A stretch of 64,000 nucleotides of DNA from Gemmatimonadaceae bacterium (GTDB taxonomy: Bacteria > Gemmatimonadota > Gemmatimonadetes > Gemmatimonadales > Gemmatimonadaceae): the NCBI GenBank assembly GCA_019637445.1, contig JAHBVS010000001.1, positions 903,586 to 967,585 on the forward strand. Direction: 5' to 3'. Below are positions 10,521 to 43,883 of the stretch, piece by piece. The position numbers and the translations under genes were made by a program. The notes under the pieces are model-generated. The model was not told the origin of the DNA, searched no databases, and saw nothing but the letters and a program-made list of their open reading frames with translations. Positions within the stretch are counted from its first letter, which is position 1. Each line of letters opens with the position of its first letter.

Positions 10521-11243
10521 TCAGTCGTCGAGCGTGAAGGGGAACGCGATCGTGCACGCGTACAGGAAGACGAGGTCGAAGGCGAGCAGGATACGCAGCC
10601 AGGCCATGCTCTCGGCCAGCGGCCGGCCCGCCAGCAGTCTGGCCGTCGCGCTGGCCGCGGGCAACACGACCGGCACGAAGAATGGCAGGGCCAGCACCGG
10701 AAGCAGCAGCTCGGCCATTCGCGTATTCGACGTGATCCCGGCGAACAACGTTCCAATGCAGGCCAGACCGATCGCCGCCAGCAGCATCACGCCGGCCAGC
10801 GGTCCGAAGATGACGCCGAAGGGCAGGTTGTAGAACAGCGCGACGGCGGGCAGCGCCACCGCCTGCACCCCGAGCACGAAGACGAGGTTGGCCAGCGCCT
10901 TACCGAGGAAGATGGACTCGCGCGGCACGGGGGCGACGAGCAGCGCATCCATCGCGCGCTCCTGCGCCTCGACCTCGAACGAGCGGTGCAGTCCCAGCAG
11001 CCCGGAGAACGTGAAGGTCACCCAGAGCACGCCCGGCGCGATGTCCAGCGGCGTGACCGCGGTAGCGTCCCAGGTGAAATAGAAAATCACCACCGCGAGC
11101 AGCGAGACCACCAGCGCCGAGAGGTAGGCGCTGCGCGTGCGGAACTCGATGGCGAGGTCCTTCCGGGCGATGAGCCAGGCGGCGGCGAGCGTGCCCGGAT
11201 GGGCAGCGGCTGCCTTTGGCGGGCCAGCGACGGGCGCGGTCAC
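10521..11243 (-). CDS. ccmB: Heme exporter permease CcmB
   Basis: 240-residue ABC-type permease with six hydrophobic segments. It carries the typical CcmB stretch RKDLAIEFRTRSAYLSALVV near the N-terminus, then LHRSFEVEAQERAMDALLVA and PRESIFLGKALANL. It forms the CcmAB(CD) complex that releases heme-loaded CcmE. The GTG start overlaps the ccmA stop (GTGA, 11240-11243). Confidence 0.92.
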   Translation of the reverse strand: MTAPVAGPPKAAAAHPGTLAAAWLIARKDLAIEFRTRSAYLSALVVSLLAVVIFYFTWDATAVTPLDIAPGVLWVTFTFSGLLGLHRSFEVEAQERAMDALLVAPVPRESIFLGKALANLVFVLGVQAVALPAVALFYNLPFGVIFGPLAGVMLLAAIGLACIGTLFAGITSNTRMAELLLPVLALPFFVPVVLPAASATARLLAGRPLAESMAWLRILLAFDLVFLYACTIAFPFTLDD

Positions 11244-11938
11244 GAGAGGAGCTCCCGATACTCGGCGGCGTAGGCAGACGCATCGAGGCCGGAGGTGTCG
11301 TCGTGGCGCACGAACCGTCCGCCGCGCATCACCGCCGCCTGTGAGGCCACCGCCAGGCCCTCCTGGAGATGGTGCGTGACCACGATCAGCGCGGCGCCTG
11401 CCTCACGTCGTTCTCGAAGCAGCGCCGTGAGTGCGACGCTGCCGAGTTCATCGAGTCCAGTGTAGGGTTCGTCGGCCAGCAACACATCCGGCGCGTGCAC
11501 GATGGCGCGGGCGATGGCCACGCGCTGCTGCAGTCCGCGCGACAGCGCGCGGACGGGGACGTCCGCGCGGTCGGCGACACGAAGTGCATCGAGCGACGCC
11601 TGCACTTTCGCGTCCGGATCAGGCAGTGCGTGCAGCTGCGCGGCAAAGCGAACGTTCTCGCGCGCCGTCAGCGCGTCGTAGAGCATCGTCCGGTGGCTGA
11701 TCAGCCCAACCCGGCTGCGGGCCTCAACCGCCGGCAGCGTGCGACCGGCCACCGCGGCGCGACCGGCGCTGGGCTTGAGCAGGCCGGCCAACAAGCGCAG
11801 TAGGGTGGTCTTGCCGGCGCCGTTCGGGCCGAAGAGCGCGAGGGCGTCACCCGGCCCGAGGTCCAGACTGACGCCGTCTACCGCGCGCCGCGCCCCGAAG
11901 GCGCGCTGCAGGCCCTCGGCCTGGATCAGCGGAGTCAC
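11240..11938 (-). CDS. ccmA: Heme exporter ATP-binding protein CcmA
   Basis: ABC ATPase of 232 residues. Walker A is FGPNGAGKTTLL and Walker B is VLLADEP, followed by YTGLDELG (D-loop) and a switch His in VVTHH. The signature helix reads LSRGLQQRVAIARA in place of LSGGQ, a variation common in CcmA-type proteins. The chosen start is GTG at 11938 (MTPLIQAEGL). An in-frame GTG at 11995 would add 19 residues with no family resemblance. The gap to the upstream STAS gene is 116 nt, so co-transcription from the riboswitch-controlled promoter is possible but unproven. Confidence 0.9.
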   Translation of the reverse strand: MTPLIQAEGLQRAFGARRAVDGVSLDLGPGDALALFGPNGAGKTTLLRLLAGLLKPSAGRAAVAGRTLPAVEARSRVGLISHRTMLYDALTARENVRFAAQLHALPDPDAKVQASLDALRVADRADVPVRALSRGLQQRVAIARAIVHAPDVLLADEPYTGLDELGSVALTALLRERREAGAALIVVTHHLQEGLAVASQAAVMRGGRFVRHDDTSGLDASAYAAEYRELLS

Positions 11939-12054
11939 GGCCTCGGTCGGCGGCAGATTCCCATACGGGAAGGCTACCGACTCGGCGGGCCGCACGGAAC
12001 GGGCAGGGGCCGTCGCAGGACAAGCGCGCTTCGGGTTCGCCTTGGCACAAGCAG

Positions 12055-12363
12055 CTATCGACGCCGCTCGACCTCAAACAGCGTGTACAGCCTTGTCGAG
12101 TCCAACAGCGTGGCGATGTCGGCAGAAACCTGAGAAAGCCGCGTGCGCATCCCACGCTCGCGCGCCCGCTTCTGGAGGAGGATCAGGCAGCCGAGTCCGG
12201 AGGCGTCGATCTCGCGGGTGGCGAGCATATCGACCACGACCACGTGGTCCCCGCGGCGCGCGGCGCCTTCAACGGCGGATAGTACGGCATCACGACAGGA
12301 CGCGCGCTCACGGTTGGTAAGCGACGGCGGAGCTACATATGTGGTGGATCGCTCTTCTGGCAT
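12055..12363 (-). CDS. STAS-domain protein (anti-sigma factor antagonist-like)
   Basis: 102-residue single STAS domain (SpoIIAA/RsbV-like). The conserved phospho-acceptor segment is IDASGLGCLILLQKRA, with the regulatory Ser at S55. The preceding strand HVVVVDML and the closing ADIATLLDSTRLYTLFEV fit the fold. Such proteins bind anti-sigma or other switch kinases in a phosphorylation-dependent manner. The ATG at 12363 has AGGGGA about 9 nt upstream. The mRNA leader contains a GEMM-I riboswitch ending 92 nt upstream of the ATG, so expression is likely tuned by a cyclic dinucleotide. No partner anti-sigma kinase is adjacent. Confidence 0.88.
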   Translation of the reverse strand: MPEERSTTYVAPPSLTNRERASCRDAVLSAVEGAARRGDHVVVVDMLATREIDASGLGCLILLQKRARERGMRTRLSQVSADIATLLDSTRLYTLFEVERRR

Positions 12364-12455: not shown

Positions 12456-12540
12456 CACCTTCGGCAACCGGACGATCTCGAACGTTCCGAGACTCCTGGC
12501 TTTGCGTCCCCGCCTCGCGACGGGTTTGCTCTTATCGGTG
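12456..12540 (-). ncRNA. GEMM-I class cyclic-dinucleotide riboswitch, A20 variant
   Basis: The minus strand shows the hallmark elements of the GEMM-I (c-di-GMP-I) aptamer in order. These are GCAAACC (12529-12523); a perfect six-pair P2 (CCCGTC/GGCGGG) capped by a GCGA GNRA tetraloop (12524-12509); the invariant GACGCAAAGCC (12508-12498); a P3 stem built on TCTCG/CGAGA and GGA/TCC; and the closing GGTTGCCG with the ligand-pairing C at 12464. P1 is CACC/GGTG. Aligned to the Vibrio Vc2 aptamer, A18, G21, C46, A47 and C92 are conserved, but the base equivalent to G20 is A (12530). That is the signature of the GEMM-Ib riboswitches that sense 3',3'-cyclic AMP-GMP. The class is secure; the ligand is inference. 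Confidence 0.87.
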
Positions 12541-40906: not shown

Positions 40907-41389
40907 TCAGGCGACGAGCATCGGCGCGGTAGCCCCGCAGCGCGCGACTGCATTGGCGTGATGCCTCAGGAGCATTTCCGCGTCCTGCCGTGACTTCACG
41001 CGCAGCCGCGACAGCAGGCCTTCCACGTGGCGTCGAACGGTGTGGACGCTGATGCCCAGGCGCGCGGACATCGCCGTGTTGTCGAGTCCCTCGGCGATGA
41101 GCGCCAGCACCGCGCGATGGCGCGGCGTCAGGTCCAGGCTGTCGCCCCGCGCGCCCTCGGAGGTCACGCAGAGCGTCACGTCGCCGAGGCACACGCGCAG
41201 GCTCTGCATTCCGATCACGCCCCGGCGCGCGAGGGCGGCATCGGCGCCCTTCGTCGCGAAGAGCAGTTCGCCCTTCCCGTTGCAGATGAGCGCCGGCACC
41301 TCGAGGCGTTCAAGCAAGCCACCCACGTCTTCGGCGAGCGCCCCTTCGAGGCCCGGCAGGGGGAAATCCAACGACCGTCGAGTCTTCAC
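40907..41389 (-). CDS. LuxR-type HTH regulator (paralogue 1)
   Basis: 160 residues. The C-terminal HTH is of the GerE/LuxR type (LTPRHRAVLALIAEGLDNTA, then ARLGISVHTVRRHVEGLLSR), about residues 87-140. The N-terminal 85 residues are a short PAS-like or degenerate sensor segment (LERLEVPALICNGKGELLFA). There is no receiver domain. It sits 28 nt downstream of a clear paralogue and is probably co-transcribed with it. Confidence 0.82.
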   Translation of the reverse strand: MKTRRSLDFPLPGLEGALAEDVGGLLERLEVPALICNGKGELLFATKGADAALARRGVIGMQSLRVCLGDVTLCVTSEGARGDSLDLTPRHRAVLALIAEGLDNTAMSARLGISVHTVRRHVEGLLSRLRVKSRQDAEMLLRHHANAVARCGATAPMLVA

Positions 41390-41417: not shown

Positions 41418-41924
41418 CTAGAGCTTGATCGTTCCCTTCCGAAGTTCGGCAGCCGCAGCCGTGCGATTCTGCACGTGCAGGCGGCGGAAGATGCTTTCGA
41501 GGTGCCGGCGCACCGTGTGGGTCGAGATCTTCAGCTCCTCGGCGATCACCGTGTTGGGCTTCCCCGCGACCAGCAGCCGCGCCACCGCCCGTTGGCGCGG
41601 CGTGAGGGCGGCAGGCTCCTCGAGCTCCGTGCGCACGATCTCCACTCGAACGACGGCTCCGGCGACCTTGGCGGAGGCGACCCGAACCGCCGCTGGATCG
41701 GCGGCGAGCAGCTGCGACTCTCCGTCATCGCTTGCCCCGATCACCTCGGCGGTGTCTGGATCCCGGACAACAACAGAAAACCCCAGCTTGTCGAACAATT
41801 CGACGAGCTGGGACACAACGGTCACCATCGAAATTCCTGACGCAATTAGGTCGATTTTCGACATAACGCGGAATATTCGCTCCCCAAGTGACCGCGCGGA
41901 ATGGGATGTTTGACCTATATCCAT
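41418..41924 (-). CDS. LuxR-type HTH regulator (paralogue 2)
   Basis: 168 residues. HTH about residues 107-165 (LTPRQRAVARLLVAGKPNTV, ISTHTVRRHLESIFRRLHVQ) matches the neighbouring paralogue closely. The N-terminal part (LVELFDKLGFSVVVRDPDTA) is a short sensor-like domain aligned with that of its neighbour. An ATG at 41864 (MSKIDL) is an alternative start. Divergently transcribed from the selenoprotein peroxiredoxin with a 79-bp gap, so it is a candidate regulator of that gene. Confidence 0.82.
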   Translation of the reverse strand: MDIGQTSHSARSLGERIFRVMSKIDLIASGISMVTVVSQLVELFDKLGFSVVVRDPDTAEVIGASDDGESQLLAADPAAVRVASAKVAGAVVRVEIVRTELEEPAALTPRQRAVARLLVAGKPNTVIAEELKISTHTVRRHLESIFRRLHVQNRTAAAAELRKGTIKL

Positions 41925-42003
41925 ACATTAGAGTGGACGTTCGGCTGGGGCTCCAAGCTGTCCGGCGTTGCGTCCGCGCCAGCGATGCGCGAGACTAGTG
42001 GCC
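41925..42003. promoter_or_regulatory. Divergent promoter region, luxR / peroxiredoxin
   Basis: A 79-bp spacer between the divergent starts. It must contain promoters in one or both directions. It is AT-richer at the luxR side (tatatccatacattagag, 41916-41933). I see no convincing palindromic operator. Confidence 0.4.
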
Positions 42004-42570
42004 ATGCCCACCACCTATAGACTCCTCGCGGCTGCCCTTCTCCTCGCCGCGGCCGTGCCGGCCGCCGCGCAGGATGCGGCGCCGCAGGGCGGCCCGAGCG
42101 TCGGGGACCTGGCTCCCGACTTCGAGCTGCAGGCCGCAACAATGACGGGGCCGAGTCAAACGCCCGTCCGACTCTCCGACTTCAGGGGACAGACCGTCGT
42201 CATCGCCTTCTTCCCGAAGGCCAGGACCGGTGGCTGAACGGCCCAAATGGAGGCGTACCGTGATCAGTACGCCACGATCTTCAAGAACGGCCAGGGCGTG
42301 AAGGTGCTGGCGATCAGCACTGATGACGTCGCCACGCTGGCCGACTGGGCGGCGGAAAAGTCCTTCCCCGTCACCTTCCTGAGCGACAAGGACGCCGAGG
42401 TCGGTCGCGCCTACGACGTGAAGGCCCCGGCCGTGAACATCAACCGACGCGTCGTGTTCGTCGTGGGACCCGATGGACGGGTGACGCACGTGATGCGTCC
42501 CTTCCGCGAGCTCTCGGCGGACGCATACACCGAACTTGGTGAAGCCGTGAAGCGGGCTTCCGGAGGCTGA
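42004..42570 (+). CDS. Selenocysteine-containing exported peroxiredoxin (TGA recoded at residue 78)
   Basis: 188 residues, AhpC-TSA/BCP-type thioredoxin-fold peroxidase. A signal peptide (MPTTYRLLAAALLLAAAVPA, cleavage near AAAQ) directs it outside the cytoplasm. The family core is VGDLAPDFELQA, then VRLSDFRGQTVVIAFFPKA. An in-frame TGA (42235-42237) then stands exactly at the peroxidatic residue: PKARTGG-Sec-TAQMEAYRD, where relatives have T-x-x-C-T. The frame continues without shift through VKVLAISTDDVATLADWAAE and VVFVVGPDGRVTHVM to the stop. There is no Cys elsewhere, so it would act as a one-Sec peroxidase relying on external thiols. A SECIS-like hairpin follows the TGA. Read naively, the gene would be split into 78- and 107-residue pieces. 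Confidence 0.9.
42252..42273 (+). promoter_or_regulatory. Candidate bacterial SECIS element
   Basis: GGCGTAC (42252-42258), loop CGTGATCA (42259-42266), GTACGCC (42267-42273): a perfect seven-pair stem inside the coding sequence. The apical loop starts 21 nt after the TGA and has G as its second base. Both values fit the published bacterial SECIS model (loop 16-37 nt downstream, short loop, G within the first two positions). It would recruit SelB with Sec-tRNA. SelABC genes are not in this window. Confidence 0.75.
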
Positions 42571-43883
42571 TGGCGCTTCGCGATGCGGCGCAGGACCTGC
42601 GGGACTGCTTCGCCGCTGCGTTGGTGGCGGCGGATCCCGCGAAGGCCGTACGCGACGGACTCTCGGCCCGCGAAGTCGCGCTCGAACTGGGGCGCGACCG
42701 CCCGCACTGGATCATCGCGATCGGCAAGGCCGCCGCTGCCATGGCAGCGGCGGCCTTGTCGCATTGTGACCGCCACCAGCGGACGGTCGCCGGCGGCTTG
42801 GTCGTGGCGACCGCGGTCCCGACCGGAGACGGCGCCGACGGTCGCCTCGACTGGCTCGTCGGCGACCACCCGGTGCCCGGCGTGCGCTCGGCGCAGGCAG
42901 CTGAGCGCCTCGGGGCGCTGAGTGACCGGGTGGGTCGCCAGGACGTCGTGCTCCTCCTGCTGTCCGGCGGCACGTCCAGCCTGATAGGTGCGCCGATTGA
43001 TGGCGTGCGCGCCGAGGATCTCGCGGCGCTGCACGCCGTGCTGCTCGGCGCGGGCGTGCCGATTGCCCGCATCAACGCCGTACGCAAGCGGTTCTCCCGC
43101 TGGGGGGCCGGACGGTTGGCCGCGGCGCTGGACTGCTGGCAGATCATCCCCATAATGCTCGCGGACGTGCCGAACGAAGACCCGGCGATGATCGGGTCGG
43201 GCCCTGTCTCCCCGGACCCGCTCGAGGCTTGGCACGTGGAGCGCATCCTGCGCGACGCCGGCATCGCGGTGCGGGTGCCACTCTCGGTGGCCTCAACGCT
43301 TGGCGCCATGCGCGCCGGCGTCCTGCCGGAGACTCCGAAACCAGGTGACCCGGCGTTCACGCGGGTGGAGGAACCCTTCGTTGTCGGCAACACCGCGGCG
43401 CTCGAGCGCGCCGCTGCCGAGGCGCACGCTCGTGGCTATGCGCCGGTGCTCCTCTCGCGGACCAGCCTGACCGGCGATGCGACCGCGGCCGGCCGGGTGC
43501 TCGCGCACACGCTCTCGCGCGCCACGCCCGGCACCTGTCTGGTTTGGGGCGGCGAGACCACGGTGCGCCTGCCGGAGCGACACGGACTCGGTGGACGCTG
43601 TCAGCAGTTGGCATTGGCCGCCGCCGAGGCGCTGCACGACATCGGCGCCGCGGACGCGTGGCTCTTGGCGGCGGGCTCGGATGGGCGGGACGGGCCAGCG
43701 CCCGCTGCCGGCGCGCTCGTGAACAGCGAGACCTGGCGGCAGAGCGCCGACGCGGGCGGCAATCCTCTGCGCGCCCTCCGCGACTGCGACGCCTTCGGCG
43801 CGCTGCGCGATGCCGACGCGCTGCTGCCGGCGTCGGAGACGGGCACCAACGTGATGGACATCGTGGTAGCGGTGCGCGCGTGA
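42570..43883 (+). CDS. Glycerate 2-kinase (GckA/TtuD, MOFRL family)
   Basis: 437 residues; phosphorylates D-glycerate at C2. The N-terminal DUF4147 domain shows WIIAIGKAAAAMAAAAL, GDHPVPGVRSAQAAERL and LLLLSGGTSSLIGAP. The KRFSRWGAGRLAAAL and PNEDPAMIGSGPVSPDP stretches are family-specific. The C-terminal MOFRL domain ends WLLAAGSDGRDGPAPAAGAL and ASETGTNVMDIVVAV. The ATG shares a base with the peroxiredoxin stop (TGATG), so its translation depends on ribosomes that read through the Sec codon upstream. Confidence 0.92.
   Translation: MALRDAAQDLRDCFAAALVAADPAKAVRDGLSAREVALELGRDRPHWIIAIGKAAAAMAAAALSHCDRHQRTVAGGLVVATAVPTGDGADGRLDWLVGDHPVPGVRSAQAAERLGALSDRVGRQDVVLLLLSGGTSSLIGAPIDGVRAEDLAALHAVLLGAGVPIARINAVRKRFSRWGAGRLAAALDCWQIIPIMLADVPNEDPAMIGSGPVSPDPLEAWHVERILRDAGIAVRVPLSVASTLGAMRAGVLPETPKPGDPAFTRVEEPFVVGNTAALERAAAEAHARGYAPVLLSRTSLTGDATAAGRVLAHTLSRATPGTCLVWGGETTVRLPERHGLGGRCQQLALAAAEALHDIGAADAWLLAAGSDGRDGPAPAAGALVNSETWRQSADAGGNPLRALRDCDAFGALRDADALLPASETGTNVMDIVVAVRA

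Follow-up and report, generated by a model that had tools for sequence, protein, structure and literature searches.

A peroxiredoxin gene of Gemmatimonadota with an in-frame TGA very probably encodes a selenoprotein

A peroxiredoxin gene in a member of the Gemmatimonadaceae carries a single in-frame TGA at the position of its catalytic cysteine, and it almost certainly encodes a selenoprotein, namely a one-selenol peroxiredoxin, probably exported, in which selenocysteine (Sec) would be inserted at UGA 42235 under the direction of SelB and a downstream hairpin. Sec insertion at this codon is what we infer from the comparison of genomes presented here. The gene lies in a window of 64,000 nucleotides, the whole stretch of DNA analyzed (Table 1), and belongs to a genome (G000) of 3.35 Mb in 7 contigs that is 100% complete, where it occupies positions 945589-946152 of contig C1, TGA included. 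Its nearest named relatives are metagenome-assembled genomes of Gemmatimonadaceae/Gemmatimonadota, which places the window in this group. The sequence-only reading had described a frame without frameshift that is interrupted once, and this is borne out: from its ATG the frame is open to a terminal TGA at 42568-42570 except for the one internal TGA. The latter stands in the context FFPKARTGG-U-TAQMEAYRDQY, which is indeed the proposed peroxidatic position, with the motif PxxxTxxU (PxxxTxxC with Sec for Cys); readthrough would yield a product of 188 amino acids with Sec at residue 78. Family sequence had been said to continue in the same frame on both flanks, and one AhpC-TSA domain (PF00578, E = 1.4e-31, 109.5 bits) spans the TGA and covers both halves. 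As foreseen, standard gene calling splits the frame and lists two separate ORFs, 41968-42237 and 42247-42570. The range 42004-42567, without the terminal stop, was the input for alignment, structure modeling and plasmid search.

Table 1. Features at the peroxiredoxin locus, in window coordinates
Feature	Position	Strand	Remarks
Peroxiredoxin gene, predicted to contain Sec	42004..42570	+	Frame with one TGA; AhpC/TSA domain at residues 33-162; probable signal peptide at residues 1-22 (MPTTYRLLAAALLLAAAVPAAA)
In-frame TGA, very probably read as selenocysteine (PKARTGGU)	42235..42237	+	Family homologues at this column: TGA 63/88, TGC/TGT 25/88
Predicted SECIS hairpin	42252..42273	+	7-bp stem 42252-42258/42267-42273; 8-nt loop CGUGAUCA at 42259-42266; begins about 14-15 nt past the TGA
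Glycerate kinase-like gene (DUF4147/MOFRL)	42570..43883	+	ATG overlaps the peroxiredoxin stop by one base (TGATG); neighbor kept in relatives
Divergent LuxR/GerE-type regulator, upstream	41418..41924	-	Only in close relatives

Matches to the peroxiredoxin were obtained in 178 of 179 genomes of the family. An alignment of homologues had been suggested as a check, and among the 88 family homologues aligned the catalytic column carries only Sec or Cys and no other codon than those listed in Table 1. The same TGA is also carried by most of 80 GTDB loci. Such recurrence, in 63 homologues of the family and the majority of these loci, excludes a sequencing error.

The hairpin behind the TGA (GGCGTAC-CGTGATCA-GTACGCC; RNA stem GGCGUAC/GUACGCC) is modest and unexceptional when judged from a single sequence: its folding z is -2.8 for a 31-nt stretch and -1.0 for 51 nt, and 11% of synonymous recodings of this sequence fold equally well. 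The decisive argument for a SECIS element comes from comparing genomes. All 93 distinct Sec sequences retain the six inner pairs, one double-sided change from G-C to A-U included. The outer pair is variable in its bases (G-C 53, C-G 18, T-A 13, A-T 1, unpaired 8), and it is paired in 85 of the 93 sequences against a mean of 40 in shuffles, none of 10,000 of which reaches 85 (sequences counted as independent). Of 33 Cys sequences, nine form the outer pair and eight the next one. For a subset of 23 sequences, 99.4% of the cells are paired; the controls give 93.9% after shuffling and no more than 45% after sliding. Synonymous codons are frozen in the Sec copies only, and within these only over the hairpin stretch: the Gln codon is CAA in 78/93 Sec sequences and CAG in 30/33 Cys sequences, Tyr is TAC in 93/93 versus 15/33 (TAC/TAT in Cys copies), Arg is CGC in 0/93 (CGT/CGG instead) versus 32/33, and Asp is GAT in 89/93 versus 10/33 (GAC/GAT in Cys copies), with P values of 1e-13 to 4e-29 for these contrasts when sequences are counted as independent. 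Bacterial SECIS elements are known for a small apical loop with guanosine (PMC1088965), and the element found here is a stem-loop shortly downstream of the UGA with the loop given in Table 1 and with covariation. The SECIS-like hairpin claimed at the expected distance is thus real, the case for it being carried by the covariation in 93 Sec sequences. Of 395 genomes of the phylum, 239 contain its 20-nt core, GCGTACCGKGAYCAGTACGC, and none contains the reversed control. Since the same gene and the nearly frozen hairpin occur throughout the phylum, we regard the gene as one that very probably encodes a real selenoprotein, not as a broken gene. In one clade of the family (L058, L061, L065, L067, L069, L072, L077, L079), the loop CGGGAUCA replaces CGUGAUCA and CAACATGAG replaces CAAATGGAG, a putative natural SECIS variant common to the whole clade.

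A search of the genome for selA, selB, selC and selD had been set beforehand as the test to refute Sec decoding, and all four are present: selA at C2:598986-600353 (519.8 bits, cut-off 267.9), selB at C3:206986-208803 (338.9 bits, cut-off 242; 624 amino acids), selD at C3:263445-264359 (384 bits), and a tRNA-Sec with anticodon UCA at C3:264485-264583 (ARAGORN; RF01852 75.3 bits, cut-off 47). The proposal that this organism decodes Sec is therefore supported. The selD gene has an in-frame TGA of its own in the catalytic motif MTREQIFRLTQFARCAGUASK (CAGUASK), and SelD is a second selenoprotein of the same genome. It is directly followed by the tRNA-Sec gene, giving a selD-selC pair (L050 1480-2582; contig C3, about 263424-264583). 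When the SECIS covariance model R1 was run on this genome, its sole match was the peroxiredoxin gene, which says little about other selenoproteins because SECIS elements differ between genes. No internal TGA was found in the molybdopterin oxidoreductases of the genome, and thus no Sec formate dehydrogenase was seen.

Sec decoding and the TGA go together among close relatives. Within the genus, all 12 TGA genomes (G000, G001, G004, G006-G011, G013-G015) score above the cut-off for selB and at 72.9 bits or more for tRNA-Sec, whereas the five Cys genomes (G002, G003, G005, G012, G016) have neither selB nor tRNA-Sec (0/5; P = 1.6e-4, Fisher's exact test, genomes counted as independent) and lack selA as well. 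The best RF01852 scores in the five Cys genomes, 43.9 to 49.6, are in the range of other tRNA matches seen in every genome. These absences are not gaps, since G012 consists of a single contig and G005 of three. With G017-G022 and G024 added (five Sec genomes with selB, two Cys genomes without), the match is perfect over 24 genomes, a count that leaves out G023 (82% complete, without a close orthologue). Outside the family, the drafts G025 and G030 have the hairpin core and tRNA-Sec with selB not above its cut-off, and the draft G032 has the core and selB with tRNA-Sec not above its cut-off; these mismatches may well be due to assembly gaps.

Seven changes suffice to explain the Sec/Cys label on a tree of the 88 proteins, compared with 22 in shuffles. 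Two separate Cys groups lie among Sec rows within the clade of the genus (17 rows, support 95). These nested groups fit repeated conversion from Sec to Cys, as far as a count on an unrooted tree, which gives no direction, can suggest. They would point the opposite way from a published peroxiredoxin table with five Cys-to-Sec and zero Sec-to-Cys events (PMC1794560). In some genomes, a second peroxiredoxin copy, mostly of the Cys type, stands in tandem: the pairs consist of two Cys copies in G003 (L034/L108) and G016 (L035/L109), of a Sec and a Cys copy in G006 (L027/L107) and G062 (L040/L110), and of two Sec copies in G071 (L063/L064). The Sec form, again with this SECIS core, was also observed in two metagenome-assembled genomes labeled as other phyla, L159 (Acidobacteria gp6) and L180 (Terrabacteria group ANGP1), by either horizontal transfer or mis-binning. 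A search of a plasmid collection returned distant relatives only, all below 60% identity.

The protein scores 61.2 bits with the NCBIfam model for PrxU (NF040737, cut-off 270) and 76.5 bits, its best NCBIfam score, with that for BCP/PrxQ (NF006960, cut-off 140), and so falls outside both curated groups. The sequence-only reading had likened it to PrxU-type selenoproteins; the replacement of the peroxidatic Cys by Sec stands, and membership in the NCBI PrxU group does not. There is no additional Cys in the protein or its homologues (88 sequences), which makes it a one-Sec (one-Cys) peroxiredoxin. The homologue alignment shows no variation at the active-site residues T75/U78 or at Arg149 further downstream. 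The Pro of PxxxTxxU is less constant, many distant Sec homologues having Phe, Tyr or another residue there. The AlphaFold model has a pLDDT of 90.2, with low confidence before residue 30. Its top match by VIA-align is AhpE of Mycobacterium tuberculosis (Z 24.4, rmsd 1.5 over 148 residues, 29% identity), tied with Bcp4 (Z 23.5) and followed by Prx1-type chains at 22.6. Residues 1-22 are probably a signal peptide and the protein is probably exported, judging from the sequence and the model. The N-termini of homologues are hydrophobic, poorly conserved and often end in AQ. The two further peroxiredoxins that the search turned up in the genome are Cys proteins and lack an N-terminus of this kind.

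Given this fold and motif, we infer peroxidase activity, and the following course is proposed. SelB and Sec-tRNA-Sec would be recruited by the hairpin and Sec would be inserted at the UGA; the N-terminal signal peptide would probably export the product to act outside the cytoplasm; and the selenolate of Sec78 would attack H2O2 or an organic peroxide and be converted to selenenic acid. As there is no cysteine elsewhere in the protein, reduction of the selenenic acid would require an external partner, a thiol or a redoxin.

The split of the frame by gene calling is what one would expect of a pseudogene or of two gene fragments, with the internal TGA acting as a genuine stop or stemming from a sequencing error. 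However, dozens of genomes share the TGA at the same codon with the protein conserved on both sides, and the TGA co-occurs with Sec machinery, which leaves this reading a vanishingly small probability. Decoding of the TGA as an amino acid other than Sec, through a reassigned code or near-cognate readthrough to Trp or Cys, is also very improbable. UGA readthrough by routes other than Sec does exist in nature, but in this organism UGA terminates normal genes, including the peroxiredoxin itself at 42568, and the full set of tRNA-Sec, selA, selB and selD is present. Where the TGA has been replaced, selA, selB and tRNA-Sec are missing and the replacing residue is always Cys. Selection on the hairpin is confined to the copies with TGA. 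The homologues and the machinery thus led us to reject a pseudogene, a sequencing error and a reassigned code.

Whether a selenoprotein of this kind is primarily a peroxidase is a separate matter. Its function is read from fold and motif, and the peroxiredoxin fold might instead serve another role, such as that of an envelope thiol-disulfide oxidoreductase or a sensor. Such a role is unlikely, as T75/U78 and Arg149, invariant here, are those of peroxiredoxins, and the lack of a second Cys in 88 sequences argues against a CxxC-type site, although the motif Pro is exchanged in many distant Sec homologues.

Sec-peroxiredoxins with TxxU (COG1225/Bcp) are an established family, first isolated from Eubacterium acidaminophilum (PMC13188914, PMC1088965, PMC9312934). 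The Sec-peroxiredoxin is listed under COG1225 (PMC9312934), 43 members were counted in the Sargasso Sea set (PMC1088965), and a 2026 review gives PxxxTxxU as the motif (PMC13188914). The Gemmatimonadota protein shares with this family the AhpC/TSA fold, the motif, the predicted replacement of the peroxidatic Cys by Sec and a SECIS element behind the UGA, but differs in being probably exported, in having no other Cys, in its phylum-wide distribution and in its nearly invariant SECIS; from NCBI PrxU it differs by its score below the model cut-off. AhpE (Rv2238c), a 1-Cys peroxiredoxin, is, in a tie with Bcp4, the closest solved fold and likewise has a single catalytic chalcogen residue, which is Cys where the Gemmatimonadota protein would have Sec. 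The M. tuberculosis enzyme is cytoplasmic and has no signal peptide. The BCP/PrxQ thiol peroxidases come nearest by NCBIfam score, although below the cut-off, but a typical PrxQ has the resolving Cys that is absent here. SelD, also a Sec-containing protein of this genome, is part of the machinery and has an unrelated fold. It is possible, if somewhat doubtful, that these proteins form a distinct phylum-wide subfamily of exported one-selenol peroxiredoxins, with no resolving thiol and a nearly invariant SECIS, which would be, besides SelD, the main reason why many Gemmatimonadota keep Sec decoding, so that its loss is paired with conversion to Cys.

No published description of a Sec peroxiredoxin or selenoproteome of Gemmatimonadota was found in the literature searched, mostly open-access papers. 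Words beginning with Gemmatimon are absent from PMC13188914, PMC9312934, PMC1794560 and PMC5029168, and the few papers that mention selenoproteins together with this group, PMC8318568 among them, are by title and abstract on other subjects. The family is thus already known, and it is the probably exported single-chalcogen form and its phylum-wide spread that were not found described. Sec use in Gemmatimonadota is undescribed in this literature, though the hairpin core occurs in well over half of the genomes sampled. Because automated calling splits the gene, a probable envelope peroxide defense of a phylum common in soil and freshwater is missing from annotations, and the core provides a ready search tag. 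The genus is in effect a natural experiment, in which relatives with Sec and the machinery can be set against relatives with Cys and without it at the same conserved locus; therefore, why bacteria keep or drop selenium becomes directly testable.

The TGATG overlap suggests that the peroxiredoxin and the glycerate kinase-like gene are probably cotranscribed. Past the latter lie a carbon-nitrogen hydrolase gene and then an agmatine deiminase-type gene, and upstream of the peroxiredoxin lie an aconitase gene and a diacylglycerol kinase-like gene, all of these neighbors being kept in many relatives. A second short LuxR/GerE regulator (40907-41389, minus strand) is adjacent to the one in Table 1; both are without an obvious receiver domain and occur in a few close relatives only. 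Elsewhere in the window, the only Rfam match at gathering thresholds is a c-di-GMP-I-GGC riboswitch (12459-12539, minus strand, 62.1 bits), which precedes genes for a 102-aa protein (12055-12363, STAS-like by eye) and an ABC transporter ATPase (11240-11995).
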